Source: a virus | Strand: one strand, 5' to 3' | Length of the DNA: 25,815 nt | IMG/VR virus record: IMGVR_UViG_3300012928_000035 | Span: 1-25,815 of that record | In this document: piece after piece, positions 4,184 to 9,676 of the stretch | How the letters are laid out: each line of letters starts with the position of its first letter | Position numbering within the stretch: the stretch's first letter is position 1 | Translations under genes and position numbers: made by a program | Notes under the pieces: generated by a model | What the model was told of the DNA's origin: nothing | The model's database searches: none | Seen by the model: only the letters and a program-made list of their open reading frames with translations

Positions 4184-4909
4184 ATGGGATTACTAGCAGA
4201 TGCCGTAAGTACAAGAAGATTTTATTTACCAACTACAGAATTATACGAAAGTGGATCGAAGTTTGGTAGTAATGTCCCTGCCTTCAACAATATTTACGAT
4301 GTGTTTATAAATTTTAGTGCGAGTCCAAAATTATCTAATTATGTTGAACAACATAATTTGCACTATAATCAAGAGACAGTAGGATCTTCCCTTGCTTTGT
4401 ATTGTTCTGAAGCACTCTTGCCTGGTTCAAATATTCAAACATCAACAGTTGATGGTATAAGACAGGGTATGTCTCAACATTATGCTACATTTAGGAGGTT
4501 TCCTGATATTACACTTACTTGGTATACTCAGCAAAACTATATGACAAATGATGTATTCAATGCTTGGATGGAATTTATCTCTCCAAATAAAGTTCAAGAT
4601 AGATTGAACTCTTTCAGAAAAATGACATATCCTGAATTTTATAAAATTCCCATGGAAATAACTGCATTTAGTAAGGATGTAATAGGACCTCCTGATAGAT
4701 TGACAAAAGATCCAGATGTAAGGACACCTAGTAGCATAACTTATAAAATCGAGCAAGCATTTCCCACTTCCATAATAGCAGCACCATTAAGATATGGTAA
4801 AGCAGAACTAATAAAAACATCAGTTACCTTTAAGTACGAAAATTACACTATTCTACGAACTTCTAGAACAGGAGAAATTAAATCAAGTAGACCCACCGTA
4901 GCACTATAA
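4184..4909 (+). CDS. 54: gp54-like baseplate/tail-tube initiator
   Basis: A 241-aa protein with a tail-tube-like pattern: NNIYDVFINFSASPKL near the N-terminus, YCSEALLPGSNI, then a central RFPDITLTWYTQQNYMTND followed by VFNAWMEFISP, and a final AELIKTSVTFKYENYTI strand. This matches the gp54/gp19 class, which extends the hub and starts tube polymerisation. Its position directly before gp26 and opposite gp48 supports the gp54 call; T4 gp54 is longer (320 aa). AGAGAGGT sits immediately before the ATG, closer than an ideal Shine-Dalgarno site. The stop codon lies inside the late promoter of the next gene. A tube-related protein other than gp54 remains possible. Confidence 0.65.
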   Translation: MGLLADAVSTRRFYLPTTELYESGSKFGSNVPAFNNIYDVFINFSASPKLSNYVEQHNLHYNQETVGSSLALYCSEALLPGSNIQTSTVDGIRQGMSQHYATFRRFPDITLTWYTQQNYMTNDVFNAWMEFISPNKVQDRLNSFRKMTYPEFYKIPMEITAFSKDVIGPPDRLTKDPDVRTPSSITYKIEQAFPTSIIAAPLRYGKAELIKTSVTFKYENYTILRTSRTGEIKSSRPTVAL

Positions 4910-4933: not shown

Positions 4934-5659
4934 ATGCCATTACCTAAGGTCGTAGCACCTACATTTGAATTAAAACTAATTTCTACATCGAAAACAGTAA
5001 AATACAGACCATTTCTTGTAAAAGAGGAAAAGGCTCTTTTGATTGCGATGGAAAGTGGTAATGATAAAGATATTACCGCTACAATCAAAGAAGTTCTAAA
5101 GTCATGTATTTTATCCCGTGGAATAAAAGTTGAAGAGTTACCCAGTTTTGAATTAGAGTATTTGTTTTTGAATATTAGAGGTAAGTCTGTTGGTGAAAAA
5201 GTTGAACTTTTAGCGACTTGTCAAGATGACGGAGAAACTAAGGTTCCATTAACCATAGCATTATCTGACATAAAATTAGATGTCCCTGATGAACACACTG
5301 ACACGATAGAATTGGATGGTGGTATTTCTGTCAAAATGAAATATCCATCAATGAAACAATTTCTAGATACTAATTTTAGTATTGCTGGAAACGATAAAGA
5401 TAGAATTAGCGAAGCATTCAAAGCAGTTGCTGACTCTATTGATCAAATATACACTGCAGAAGAATCATGGTCTGCAAGTGATTGCACTAACAAAGAGTTA
5501 GTGTCATTTATTGAACAACTAAGTTCGGCACAGTTTCAAAAGATTGAAGAATTTTTTGCAACCATGCCTAAGTTACAGTATAAAGGAACTATCACTAATC
5601 CAAAAACAGATGTAGAATCTGAGGTCGTAATTGAGGGATTAGCAAATTTTTTCGCATAA
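4934..5659 (+). CDS. 26: gp26-like baseplate hub protein / tail assembly chaperone
   Basis: Resembles the T4 base plate protein family that includes gp26. Landmarks are VAPTFELKLISTSKTVKYRPF, LVKEEKALLIAMES near the N-terminus, and LPSFELEYLFLNIRGKSVGE at about residues 68-87. Length is 241 aa (T4 gp26 208 aa). In T4, gene 26 is followed by gene 51 and then the hub and tape-measure genes, and the same order is seen here. The stop overlaps the next ATG (TAATG). Six codons before the stop is an A AAT TTT heptamer in the correct phase for a -1 shift into the next ORF, which would give a 305-aa fusion. Position and possible frameshift are like the lambda G/GT tail chaperones. I am fairly sure of the family, less so of the exact role. 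Confidence 0.78.
   Translation: MPLPKVVAPTFELKLISTSKTVKYRPFLVKEEKALLIAMESGNDKDITATIKEVLKSCILSRGIKVEELPSFELEYLFLNIRGKSVGEKVELLATCQDDGETKVPLTIALSDIKLDVPDEHTDTIELDGGISVKMKYPSMKQFLDTNFSIAGNDKDRISEAFKAVADSIDQIYTAEESWSASDCTNKELVSFIEQLSSAQFQKIEEFFATMPKLQYKGTITNPKTDVESEVVIEGLANFFA
5644..5650 (+). promoter_or_regulatory. Candidate -1 programmed ribosomal frameshift site (A AAT TTT)
   Basis: In the gp26 frame the codons read GCA AAT TTT TTC GCA TAA, so the bases A-AAT-TTT form a canonical X-XXY-YYZ slippery heptamer. Both tRNAs could re-pair on AAA and TTT. The -1 frame continues TTT CGC ATA ATG straight into the gp51-like ORF without a stop. Possible pairing downstream: GATGCT (5680-5685) with AGCATC (5714-5719) enclosing AAGCA/TGCTT (5693-5697/5703-5707), but this starts about 30 nt from the site, farther than usual. 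AT-richness could also produce the heptamer by chance. Confidence 0.45.
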
Positions 5660-5850
5660 TGTTATATCATACCAGCATTGATGCTATGATGGAAGCAAAT
5701 TTTGCTTTGATGCAGCATCATAACTGGAGTCTAAGTGATATTGAGTCTATGATACCTTGGGAAAGAGAAGTTTATGTTGGATATCTCGTTAAGTTCCTAG
5801 AAAAACAAAAGTTAGAAGCACAACAAGCACAGCATGCAAACTCCTGGTAG
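5659..5850 (+). CDS. Small gp51-like hub assembly protein / chaperone second frame
   Basis: A 63-aa ORF whose ATG overlaps the gp26 stop (TAATG). It holds the motif NWSLSDIESMIPWEREVYVG followed by YLVKFLEKQKLEAQQAQ, a pattern of hydrophobic helix, PWER and a Lys/Gln-rich tail reminiscent of the second reading frame of tail assembly chaperones. In T4, gene 51 (hub assembly catalyst, 249 aa) sits here, so position suggests gp51, but the protein is far shorter and I cannot claim clear homology. It can be made by reinitiation after gp26 or as the extension of a -1 frameshift product. Its last 17 bases overlap the next gene. Confidence 0.6.
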   Translation: MLYHTSIDAMMEANFALMQHHNWSLSDIESMIPWEREVYVGYLVKFLEKQKLEAQQAQHANSW

Positions 5851-7705
5851 AGCAATAGAACCACAGACTTCTATGATTCCTTTGGAACGTAGAATGGATT
5901 CTGCCTATGAGAGAATGTTGGTTAGAGTGCAGGATGGCACTCCAGTAGAAAGACCTCAGATAAGAGGTTTAGGTAGGGTTGTTCTTGAGATGGAGCAACT
6001 CAACAATAACATGAAAAGTATCCAATCTGAGATACAAAGTGATATAAGAGCAAGACGTAAATATTTTGAGGAAGAGCAGAAATTGCTCAAAAAAGATATA
6101 CAACAGCAGCAAGGATTTCAGACTGGTGCTCTTTTTGATCTACGTAAGATAGTAGGACTAGCATCATTCGGTATTGCTGCAAATGAACTTGCTCAGGGTG
6201 ATATCGCAGGTGCAGCACAAGGTATTGGATTAGGAACTGCTGCATTTTTACCAGAGATTGCACAGGGTGTGGTTGGAATATTAGCTGCAAGAGGACTTAT
6301 AGGAGGTGCTGGTGGAGCATTACGTGGAAGTGGAATGGTTGCTGGTGGACTTGGAATGTTGGGAGGTGGTAAAGCAAAGGCTATCTTAGGGTTAGCAGCT
6401 CTTGGTGGATTATTGCTGACAGGAGGTGCTTTAGCATCTAATGACTCAGATAATAGGAGAAGACAAAGCATTATAGAAAATGTAAAAGGGGATGATACTA
6501 TTAATGCACCTGATGTTGTAAGATTTAGATCACAACTCACAACAGCAGATGCCATATTGGGTAGTGTGAAAGATACTACTCCAGAAAAAACCTCAGGTGG
6601 TGATAACACACTAAATCTTGACACTACTGAAGAACAGGTAGCAAAACTTCTAAAAAATCCTATGAAAGGTGCAAAACCTGCTGATGCACCCACTGCAGAG
6701 GTCGAGAAAAAGTCAACAATAGTTCCTAAAATTGATGAAGATGAGAAAACTGTTGAACAAAAGGTAGGATTCTTCAATAGATTTTTTGGATCACCTGCCC
6801 AAGCTGGAACTTTAGATGAGTTTATTGCTCAAGGTGGTGTTTTGCCTGATCAATCAACTTTTGATTTGACAGGAGCTTCTCAAGATATCATAGGAGACGA
6901 TGTAGAGTTTATTGAGGCAATAAAAAAATTATCTAAAAAGAGACAGATAAACCCTGCTGAATTACTCGGATTGATAGCATCGGAATCTTCATTAGACCCT
7001 AAAGCATTCAATGAAGACACAGGTGCAGCAGGGTTGATGCAGTTTTTACCTCATATTGCAGAGGGTTTAGGAACAAATACAGATGAAATATTGAAGATGA
7101 GTAGAGCTCAACAAGTAGATCTTATTGATGAGTATTTTGAGAGGAATAAACTACCAAATAATCCAACTGTTGGTCAATTGAAAACAAATGTTCTGATGCC
7201 ATTCCATACAGATGAAAGTGATGATTATGAGTTGATGACTAAATTTGATAAATTTACTGACGGTTATCAAGGTTTTCCATACGTTTATGATGCAAATAAA
7301 GGTTTAGATTATAACAAAGATGGTTTTGTCACTGTTGCTGAGGCAGGGGAGAGTATAACAAGAAAAATGGATGAATTTGGTATTTTGGACTTGACTAATA
7401 TGTTGTCTGATGTAGAAAAGAAGAAAGTAAATATTGATGGTAAAAGTTCAAGTAAAAATCAGTGGTGGGATTTTATGGATTTGTTTCCCAATAAAAAGGA
7501 GCAATCAATAGAACCAGTTGAGACCAATAAAAGTAGTACAGAACCTGTCATAATAAATGAAGGTGGAAAAATTCAGGAAATGACCACCCCTCCACCAGTG
7601 CCTAATAATGCTACAGGAGATGTGAACGTGTCAACAATATTTGAAGGATCTATAGACAAACTTGAGTCTGCATATTCATTAAAAACTTACGCTGCCTTTG
7701 GATAA
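5834..7705 (+). CDS. Tape-measure-like virion protein with lytic transglycosylase domain
   Basis: A 623-aa protein in the tape-measure position. From the N-terminus it has a predicted coiled coil (about 45-93, rich in E, K, Q), a long Gly/Ala-rich hydrophobic stretch (about 97-201), a polar linker, and a soluble lytic transglycosylase-like domain (about 354-510). There E384 (LIASESSLD) is the likely catalytic acid and G400-L-M-Q403 (GAAGLMQFLP) is the second typical motif. Residues 492-503 (DYNKDGFVTVAE) form a canonical EF-hand calcium loop. A Pro-rich linker leads to a short C-terminus. It probably travels in the tail and helps DNA cross the cell wall by cleaving peptidoglycan. The ATG at 5834 overlaps the preceding gene and has no clear ribosome site, so translation may be coupled. 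Confidence 0.72.
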   Translation: MQTPGRAIEPQTSMIPLERRMDSAYERMLVRVQDGTPVERPQIRGLGRVVLEMEQLNNNMKSIQSEIQSDIRARRKYFEEEQKLLKKDIQQQQGFQTGALFDLRKIVGLASFGIAANELAQGDIAGAAQGIGLGTAAFLPEIAQGVVGILAARGLIGGAGGALRGSGMVAGGLGMLGGGKAKAILGLAALGGLLLTGGALASNDSDNRRRQSIIENVKGDDTINAPDVVRFRSQLTTADAILGSVKDTTPEKTSGGDNTLNLDTTEEQVAKLLKNPMKGAKPADAPTAEVEKKSTIVPKIDEDEKTVEQKVGFFNRFFGSPAQAGTLDEFIAQGGVLPDQSTFDLTGASQDIIGDDVEFIEAIKKLSKKRQINPAELLGLIASESSLDPKAFNEDTGAAGLMQFLPHIAEGLGTNTDEILKMSRAQQVDLIDEYFERNKLPNNPTVGQLKTNVLMPFHTDESDDYELMTKFDKFTDGYQGFPYVYDANKGLDYNKDGFVTVAEAGESITRKMDEFGILDLTNMLSDVEKKKVNIDGKSSSKNQWWDFMDLFPNKKEQSIEPVETNKSSTEPVIINEGGKIQEMTTPPPVPNNATGDVNVSTIFEGSIDKLESAYSLKTYAAFG

Positions 7706-9676
7706 ATGGACTTAACACCGATAGTAACAAAAAATAAAAGAACCTCTAATGCTTTACTAAGAGATATAAGTAGAAGATCTTCTCTCAATAGAACGTATGA
7801 GAAGAAAACTTTAGAGTTATTAAAGAAATCAATAGAGCAAAGAAATAAAACATATAATGCTTTATCAAAGAGAGATAAGGAGGGTGGTGGAATATTAGGT
7901 AATCTTCTTGGAGGTTCACTACTTCTAAGAAGATTTAGGGGTCGTGGAGGTCGTGGTTTTGGTCAAGGTGGTATCGGACGTAGAGGTATTCCACCTAAAA
8001 CACCTAGAGGTGGTGGCACAATAGGTGGCGGTGTTGGTAGATTTGGTAGATTTGGTAGAATCGGACCGTTAGCAATATTAGGCACAGGATTAGATTTTGC
8101 AGGTAGAATAGGTAGTGGACAGAATTTAGCACAAGCAACTATTGGTGCTGGTGGAGGACTAGCAGGTGCTCTTGCTGGTGGAAAAATTGGTGCTGCAATA
8201 GGTACAGCAATATTGCCAGGTGTGGGAACTATTGCTGGTGGATTGCTTGGTAGTGGTATAGGTGCTGTTACAGGTGGTAATATAGCAGATACACTCACAG
8301 GATTAGGTTCTGATACAAGAAGACAATTACAAACAACTATCCAAAAAAGGAGAGGAGATAAGACTTTATTCTCAGGTGCATTAGATCAATTTGATGGCAC
8401 CTTAAGAACTTTAGAGGAAGATACTGCACCTACCTTGATGACATTCAAGAAGTTTGGTAGGTCTGATGATGATGGTGGTGGTGGTCCTATGGGTGTAGGA
8501 CGTTTTCCTACAACTGCACCTACACAACCATTCTTTACTGCTGGTAGAATTGCTGATATTGTTTTTCTAACTTTAGAATTAGGATTACTTGCTGGTGCAA
8601 TTGTTTTTCCTGGTGATGCAGTTGCTGGAGATGTCGCTGCTGCAGGACTTGTAGCAAGGAGACTTGCTAAACTTAGATTATTAAGAAAATCATCAAAATT
8701 TCTTGATTTTTCTAAGAGAGCATCTGAAATAACAAAAAAAACTAAACAGATAGAAAATGCTCGTATTCTATTCAAGAGAAACTTAAAGACAAGAATATTC
8801 AGACAAAGATCGATAAGTAAAAACTCTAAAATGAATAAATTTTTTAGAGATACACCTGATATAATATTTGATTCTAATTTACCTGCTGTGTCTAGAGGAG
8901 GAAGGGTCAGAAGACAGGGTGCTAACGAATTATTACAGACAAGAATTGATAATGTATTGGATTCTATACGCACTCCAAAATCCAAACTCAAAAAAGTGGA
9001 ACAACTAGATCTTTTAGATGATTTGCTTGGAAACGCTGCAATGCGAGATAGATTGGGAGCGTTGGGTGATGCCTCAAGACCAGATAAATTAGTTAGGGAA
9101 GCACTAAAAACTGGTAAAATAGAAAGTGCAGCTCAACGAGATGCAGTGGAGGCATTTTTTGATTTTTTCTCAGATAATTATATTACAAAAAGTGGTGCTT
9201 CCTCTACTAGACAAATCAAGAAATTATCTGTATCTCCAGTTGGTAAATTACTTAATAGATATAAAAATTTGCAACAGAAATCAAGAATTAATAAAAAGAG
9301 GATTCCTAGAGAAAATATCGAAGAGTTACTTAAAAAATCAGATGATATTCCTGATGAACTTATAGACCTGAATATGCCGTTGTCGATTCCGTCATCTGTT
9401 AAAATACCTGGATTAGCAGAAGGTGGTAGAGTTGAGGCAGGTACACCATACTTTGTTGGTGAGGTAGGAAAGGAATTATTTGTGCCTGATGTGAGTGGTG
9501 ACATTGTGCCTAATGATGACTTAGGACCAGCGATAATTGCCATGACTAGAGATCCTGATACTATCATAAAATCATCAGGTGGTGGGGATAGTTCTAATCG
9601 CACTGTTGTTGTGCCAGCAAGTTCATACGATGTTGTCGCTAAATATGCACAGATGACGGGATTGTTTACGGTATAA
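7706..9676 (+). CDS. Tail tape measure protein (gp29 position)
   Basis: A 656-aa protein starting directly after the preceding stop (TAAATG). It has a basic, helical N-terminus, Gly/Arg-rich segments (about 70-125), and Gly/Ala hydrophobic stretches (about 125-200 and 280-315) with the alternating G-x-x-x-G style of tape measures. Helical Lys/Arg-rich regions follow. Near the C-terminus (about 571-603) is the widespread tape-measure motif EGGRVEAGTPYFVGEVG followed by KELFVPDVSG and IVPND. This motif and the location between gp26/gp51 and gp27 make it the best candidate for the functional equivalent of T4 gp29 (590 aa), which sets tail length and passes through the hub. Its ending overlaps gp27 (TAATG). 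Division of labour with the preceding transglycosylase protein is unknown. Confidence 0.7.
   Translation: MDLTPIVTKNKRTSNALLRDISRRSSLNRTYEKKTLELLKKSIEQRNKTYNALSKRDKEGGGILGNLLGGSLLLRRFRGRGGRGFGQGGIGRRGIPPKTPRGGGTIGGGVGRFGRFGRIGPLAILGTGLDFAGRIGSGQNLAQATIGAGGGLAGALAGGKIGAAIGTAILPGVGTIAGGLLGSGIGAVTGGNIADTLTGLGSDTRRQLQTTIQKRRGDKTLFSGALDQFDGTLRTLEEDTAPTLMTFKKFGRSDDDGGGGPMGVGRFPTTAPTQPFFTAGRIADIVFLTLELGLLAGAIVFPGDAVAGDVAAAGLVARRLAKLRLLRKSSKFLDFSKRASEITKKTKQIENARILFKRNLKTRIFRQRSISKNSKMNKFFRDTPDIIFDSNLPAVSRGGRVRRQGANELLQTRIDNVLDSIRTPKSKLKKVEQLDLLDDLLGNAAMRDRLGALGDASRPDKLVREALKTGKIESAAQRDAVEAFFDFFSDNYITKSGASSTRQIKKLSVSPVGKLLNRYKNLQQKSRINKKRIPRENIEELLKKSDDIPDELIDLNMPLSIPSSVKIPGLAEGGRVEAGTPYFVGEVGKELFVPDVSGDIVPNDDLGPAIIAMTRDPDTIIKSSGGGDSSNRTVVVPASSYDVVAKYAQMTGLFTV

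Follow-up and report, generated by a model that had tools for sequence, protein, structure and literature searches.

The locus analysed here raises the question of whether gp26 and the small open reading frame (ORF) behind it, named gp51 in the annotation of relatives, are two genes or a single gene from which a -1 frameshift makes two tail assembly chaperones. Such a programmed -1 frameshift is known from the lambda G/GT genes (Xu, Hendrix and Duda 2004, as cited in PMC3711429; summarized in PMC5009743), and G-T frameshifting has been described as conserved "except T4" (Atkins et al. 2016, PMC5009743). In this study, the window refers to the whole stretch of viral DNA that was analysed (25,815 nucleotides, record IMGVR_UViG_3300012928_000035).

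The gp26 gene occupies positions 4934-5659, ends with a TAA stop codon at 5657-5659 and encodes 241 amino acids, which matched the T4_baseplate family PF12322 over the full length and above the family cut-off (E 5.8e-69; 232.5 bits, cut-off 24.5). Its 3' end reads GAG GGA TTA GCA AAT TTT TTC GCA TAA. The small ORF (63 aa, 5659-5850) lies in the -1 frame relative to gp26 and its ATG overlaps the gp26 stop codon (TAATG), and the -1 frame is open starting 22 nt 5' of that stop. A preliminary description of this DNA had predicted a shifted product of 305 aa against 241 aa unshifted, with the -1 frame open from the slip site, and the same lengths were computed here: 240 plus 65 residues, in which the gp26 residues are followed by RIMLYHTSID...NSW (junction ANFF-RIMLYH). 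The small ORF also matched the C-terminal end of phrog_150 weakly, which was a first sign that both halves form one protein in other phages. Along the locus, the tail tube gene is followed by gp26/51, the gene of an SLT-domain protein and a tape-measure-like gene, which places gp26 between tail tube and tape measure. The features of the locus are as follows.

4184-4909, plus strand: tail tube-like gene, upstream of gp26 (PF23849, E 5.9e-16; phrog_45)
4934-5659, plus strand: gp26, putative short tail assembly chaperone of the gpG or TAC-N type (PF12322, phrog_150, AF2 model)
4934-5850, plus strand: predicted frameshift product of 305 aa, gpGT or TAC-NC type
5633-5637, plus strand: Shine-Dalgarno (SD)-like GAGGG, 9 nt 5' of the heptamer and probably stimulating the -1 slip from the 5' side
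5647-5653, plus strand: slippery heptamer T TTT TTC (NNT TTT TTN in 112 of 112 representatives, in one phase)
5653-5850, plus strand: T domain, the continuation in the -1 frame, of 65 codons and a stop (phrog_634, E 6.6e-22)
5654-5752, plus strand: possible 3' stimulatory RNA structure, a prediction only in the window's clade (z -2.3 over 102 nt)
5834-7705, plus strand: next gene, overlapping the T domain, with an SLT transglycosylase domain (PF01464, E 3.5e-9)
7706-9676, plus strand: tape-measure-like gene (phrog_794, E 2.5e-10; phrog_167, E 8e-9)

With an SLT gene at 5834-7705 and a tape-measure-like ORF at 7706-9676, the tail-length function may be split between two proteins.

A total of 272 gp26 loci were gathered from viral contigs and isolates, of which five Ackermannviridae-type loci were left out, and the remaining 267 were counted. 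From these loci, 112 representatives with less than 80% amino-acid identity to each other were used; they were gathered by similarity searches with mostly cyanophage-like queries and are related, so that the counts are not independent events. Vibrio 6E35 and Vibrio 1.244.A, used as queries for related loci, returned no relatives. An in-frame NNT TTT TTN at most 20 codons from the stop, together with a -1 frame open past the stop, was found in 266 of the 267 loci. The lone exception, a Menderavirus locus (L200), has five T's plus C, which destroys the layout, while the near-identical L199 has six; the missing T is most easily explained by a sequencing error in the homopolymer or by recent variation.

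All 112 T-runs begin at codon position 3 and comprise 6-8 T's. The codon before TTT was AGT, AAT, TCT, GAT, GCT, CGT, CAT, ACT or GGT, representing eight amino acids, and the codon after it was TTC in 89 representatives, TTT in 15, TTA in 7 and TTG in 1 (Phe or Leu); the nucleotides of the slip site are kept while the encoded amino acids vary. GAT TTT TTC is kept even in phages of 54-56% GC (Mendera, V45v66 and PhiW-14). Elsewhere in gp26 genes, NNT TTT TTN occurred at 15 of 26,065 positions, that is, about 0.012 expected per 20-codon window, and the occurrence of the slip site is not a matter of chance. A naive calculation for a third-base T in 112 of 112 preceding codons gave log10 P = -24.7, a value that ignores relatedness and is not to be taken as a significance.

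The heptamer named in the preliminary description was a different one, A AAT TTT, which is indeed present at 5644-5650 in the gp26 phase. T TTT TTC overlaps it one codon downstream, and a slip on either would give an identical protein. A AAT TTT was present in only 16 of the 112 representatives, compared with all 112 for the T TTT TTC-type site, and was rejected as the conserved slip site. When the junction was aligned across relatives as had been proposed, the phase and the -1 ORF proved conserved together with a heptamer, which was T TTT TTN and not A AAT TTT.

The alternative that survives best, although improbable, is that the 63-aa gp51 is a protein of its own, translated solely through termination-reinitiation at TAATG, with the T-run incidental. 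The window and its closest relatives carry TAATG or TGATG, the overlapping ATG is kept in most sequences of the window's own clade, and databases annotate two genes. Whenever two ORFs overlap by TAATG or ATGA, the second one is in the -1 frame, and the phase by itself would therefore prove little. However, a TAATG-type overlap was found in only 16 of 112 representatives, and in 41 of 109 the first ATG past the slip comes only at codon 9 or later, often at codon 18-19 and there within the conserved domain of the -1 ORF. No SD-like sequence preceded any of the 68 earlier ATGs of the -1 ORF, and the invariant phase of the T-run and the in-frame fusion in T4 gp51 (see below) also argue against reinitiation as the only route. 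Within the window's clade, reinitiation at TAATG may add a separate 63-aa protein to the products of the frameshift. Databases have given the T domain arbitrary internal starts in several loci, yielding proteins of 34-48 aa from which the first part is lost (L082, 3250-3393; L091, 3184-3324; L089, 3188-3292).

An SD 4-mer about 9-10 nt before the heptamer (GGAGG or GAGGG) was present in 100 of the 112 representatives, compared with 8% in other windows. At this site the Glu of Glu-Gly pairs is encoded by GAG in 71 of 92 cases against a background of 30%, and the Gly codon is GGG in 9 of 21 cases after GAA against 8 of 71 (Fisher P 0.003, relatedness ignored). A second alternative is that RNA polymerase rather than the ribosome slips on the T-run and so yields the -1 product. 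A run of 6-8 T's is always there, but 97 of the 112 runs have merely 6 T's, the SD-like element at its constant distance acts on ribosomes, and the start at codon position 3 in every representative is needed by tandem tRNA slippage and not by a polymerase, all of which makes this alternative very improbable. A third alternative, that the run simply follows from the conservation of a Gly-Leu-x-x-Phe-Phe terminus in AT-rich genomes and plays no part in decoding, would agree with the conservation of GLxxFF, T4 gp26 included, and with a TTT fraction of 0.67 among the Phe codons of gp26 genes, but it is scarcely credible given the third-base T in 112 of 112 preceding codons, the slip pattern in only 3 of 117 Phe-Phe pairs elsewhere (mostly TTC TTT), the persistence of the run with Leu as second residue and at 54-56% GC, and the TTC TTT of T4, where no slip is needed.

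The RNA 3' of the slip site was predicted to be more structured than control stretches (mean z -1.2 to -1.5 versus -0.1 to -0.4). In a sister clade of the window's, A3 (33 sequences, with L012, L015, L027, L045, L058 and L272 among its members), an 11-bp stem lies 5 nt past the heptamer and carries compensatory changes: changes on both sides were seen in 17 cells versus 4.4 after shuffling (0 of 500 shuffles reached this number), and pairing was lost when the stem was slid to other registers. The stem was first spotted in the same sequences, so that this covariation test was not blind. A stem-loop is likely to be the 3' stimulator in the sister clade. For the window itself a structure is predicted (z as listed above), but no covariation was found in the window's own clade, where the pairs do not vary. 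RNAalifold returned no pairs across 38 diverse sequences.

A structural comparison of gp26 with tail chaperones was made, as had been suggested, and the match was moderate. The two best solved matches of the gp26 AF2 model (pLDDT 91.8) were 2OB9, the tail assembly chaperone of HK97 (Z 7.9), and 3KLU, which is YqbN (Z 7.1), over the N-terminal 86-88 residues, and the matches from rank 4 down scored Z 4.4 or less. Z scores below 8 may reflect a common structural arrangement. A Foldseek search of the model against the PDB gave nothing significant, with the HK97 chaperone ranking third, and a PDB sequence-profile search with gp26 gave chance-level matches only. Both 2OB9 and 3KLU are termed phage tail chaperones (PMC9603447), and the modelled likeness of the gp26 N-terminal fold to them is supportive, not decisive. 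Fold likeness and gene order together support gp26/51 as chaperones of the G/GT type.

The arrangement in T4 provides a further line of evidence. T4 gp26 (208 aa) consists of PF12322 alone, while in T4 gp51 (249 aa) residues 1-201 belong to PF12322 and are followed by a C-terminus like the -1 extension, colinear with it from the slip Phe-Phe at 31% identity. T4 gp51 is PF12322 plus the T domain in frame and is thus the equivalent of the frameshifted protein; by sequence comparison, T4 has a separate gene for each of G and GT, 26 for the short and 51 for the long form. The T4 lineage had been characterized beforehand as having separate genes 26 and 51, which holds as to the two genes, but gp51 is not the stand-alone equivalent of the small ORF. 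The proteins are homologous to those of the window, T4 gp26 corresponding to the short form and T4 gp51 to the short domain with the T domain; T4 differs in that its two genes lie on opposite strands and lack a slip site, where the window has one gene with a slip site.

PF12322 was present in two copies in the records of T4, RB43 and Krischvirus and in one copy in the other 19 records tested, five of which have Ackermannviridae-type ends. The 13 complete genomes with the window's layout or a close one contain one copy each. The window record also has one copy, but it is a 25.8-kb fragment and a second copy elsewhere in the genome is possible. In the short genes of the two-copy phages the slip is gone, the spot reading GAG TTC TTT, AGT TTC CTT or GCG TTT TTA. 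Aeromonas phage CC2 (L290; Straboviridae, Emmerichvirinae) has a single PF12322 copy ending in AGT TTT TTC GCA TAA and an open, unannotated -1 ORF. This frameshift layout within the Straboviridae suggests that the switch occurred inside T4's own family. T TTT TTN is carried by Kyanoviridae, Emdodecavirus, Menderavirus, Ionavirus and the Emmerichvirinae phage CC2, and we consider it likely that a slip at gene 26 is widespread and ancestral for the two chaperones of T4-related phages, and that the T4 branch swapped in a gene duplication. In that duplication, the first copy would have retained the short form while losing its slip site, and the second would have become an in-frame fusion. If this is true, a pair of genes replaced recoding inside a single family, and the contrast between T4 and CC2 offers a natural experiment on gene duplication replacing recoding.

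Conservation, phase, missing starts, stimulators, fold and the T4 arrangement together give strong support to the core of the earlier proposal, namely that gp26 and gp51 of marine T4-like phages form a chaperone pair of the lambda G/GT type, linked by -1 frameshifting ahead of the tape measure. As judged from sequence comparison, a frameshift of this type at gp26 very probably makes a short and a long tail chaperone. In the proposed mechanism, for which we infer the actual slipping, its rate, the chaperone function and the binding partners, most ribosomes would terminate at 5657-5659 and release the 241-aa short form, while a minority would undergo tandem slippage back by one nucleotide at T TTT TTC and continue through the T domain, giving the 305-aa gpGT-type (TAC-NC) protein. 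The SD-like GAGGG would pair with the 16S rRNA tail and hold the ribosome, and the downstream RNA structure may help. By analogy with lambda, the tape measure protein would be the binding partner of both products, and the T domain would serve to bring in tail tube subunits.

The slip heptamer of lambda is G GGA AAG. Lambda G/GT and gp26 share one gene with a short and a long product, a -1 shift near its 3' end and a place between tail tube and tape measure, and the modelled N-terminal fold of gp26 bears a moderate resemblance to the HK97 chaperone. There is, however, no sequence similarity between gp26 and lambda G, and T TTT TTC differs from the lambda heptamer; the PF12322 protein is larger than that of lambda, no solved counterpart was found for its second half, and the window belongs to a contractile-tailed T4-like phage, unlike lambda. 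Escherichia coli dnaX shifts to the -1 frame on A AAA AAG, which has an SD-like element some 10 nt before it and a stem-loop on its 3' side. It shares with gp26 the homopolymer heptamer and the upstream SD-like element, but it is a cellular gene with a 3' stem-loop, whereas the stem-loop of the window is a prediction only. In Vandenendeviridae and Andersonviridae, tail chaperone frameshifting occurs at GTTTTT (PMC12846349). There too a poly-T slip ends the short chaperone gene and the -1 frame lacks premature stops; the site differs from T TTT TTN of gp26, and the likeness noted here is one of slip layout.

According to papers citing it, Vladimirov et al. 2022 identified gp26/gp51 as the T4-like tail chaperones (PMC10885494, PMC12846349), and these papers state that in some T4-like phages one short gene and one long, fused gene stand in place of the frameshift (PMC10885494) and that T4-like TAC-N genes are known to have poly-T slip signals (PMC12846349). 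The kind of frameshift is already known, and the cyanophage case is probably known too. In the literature searched, which covered Vladimirov et al. 2022 through these citing papers only, we did not find the constancy of the phase across 112 lineages, the covarying stem, the SD-like element, or the one- and two-copy pattern including CC2; the measured breadth and the stimulators of the gp26 frameshift may be new.

T4 has been listed as an exception to tail-chaperone frameshifting (PMC5009743), and its marine relatives appear to use it. T4 genes 26 and 51, long assigned to the "baseplate hub" with unclear roles, would be the two separated chaperone products. In public genomes, gp26 is annotated as "baseplate hub", and the T domain either appears as a gene of its own, frequently with an arbitrary start, or is absent; one gene with a slip would be the better annotation.

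Ackermannviridae-type phages and similar Vibrio and Aeromonas phages (gp26-like 3' ends in L086, L089, L090, L092, L093, L282-L286, L291 and L292) keep a T-like domain in the -1 frame and lack T TTT TTN. Their T-like domain often has no start codon, as in CBA120, K751 and phiMAM1, where it is unannotated. These phages probably use a different slip site. Most have N NTT TTY at the conserved spot (ATT TTC, CTT TTC or GTT TTT; Vibrio YC has GCT TTC), which recalls T7 gene 10 or the Vandenendeviridae site GTTTTT.
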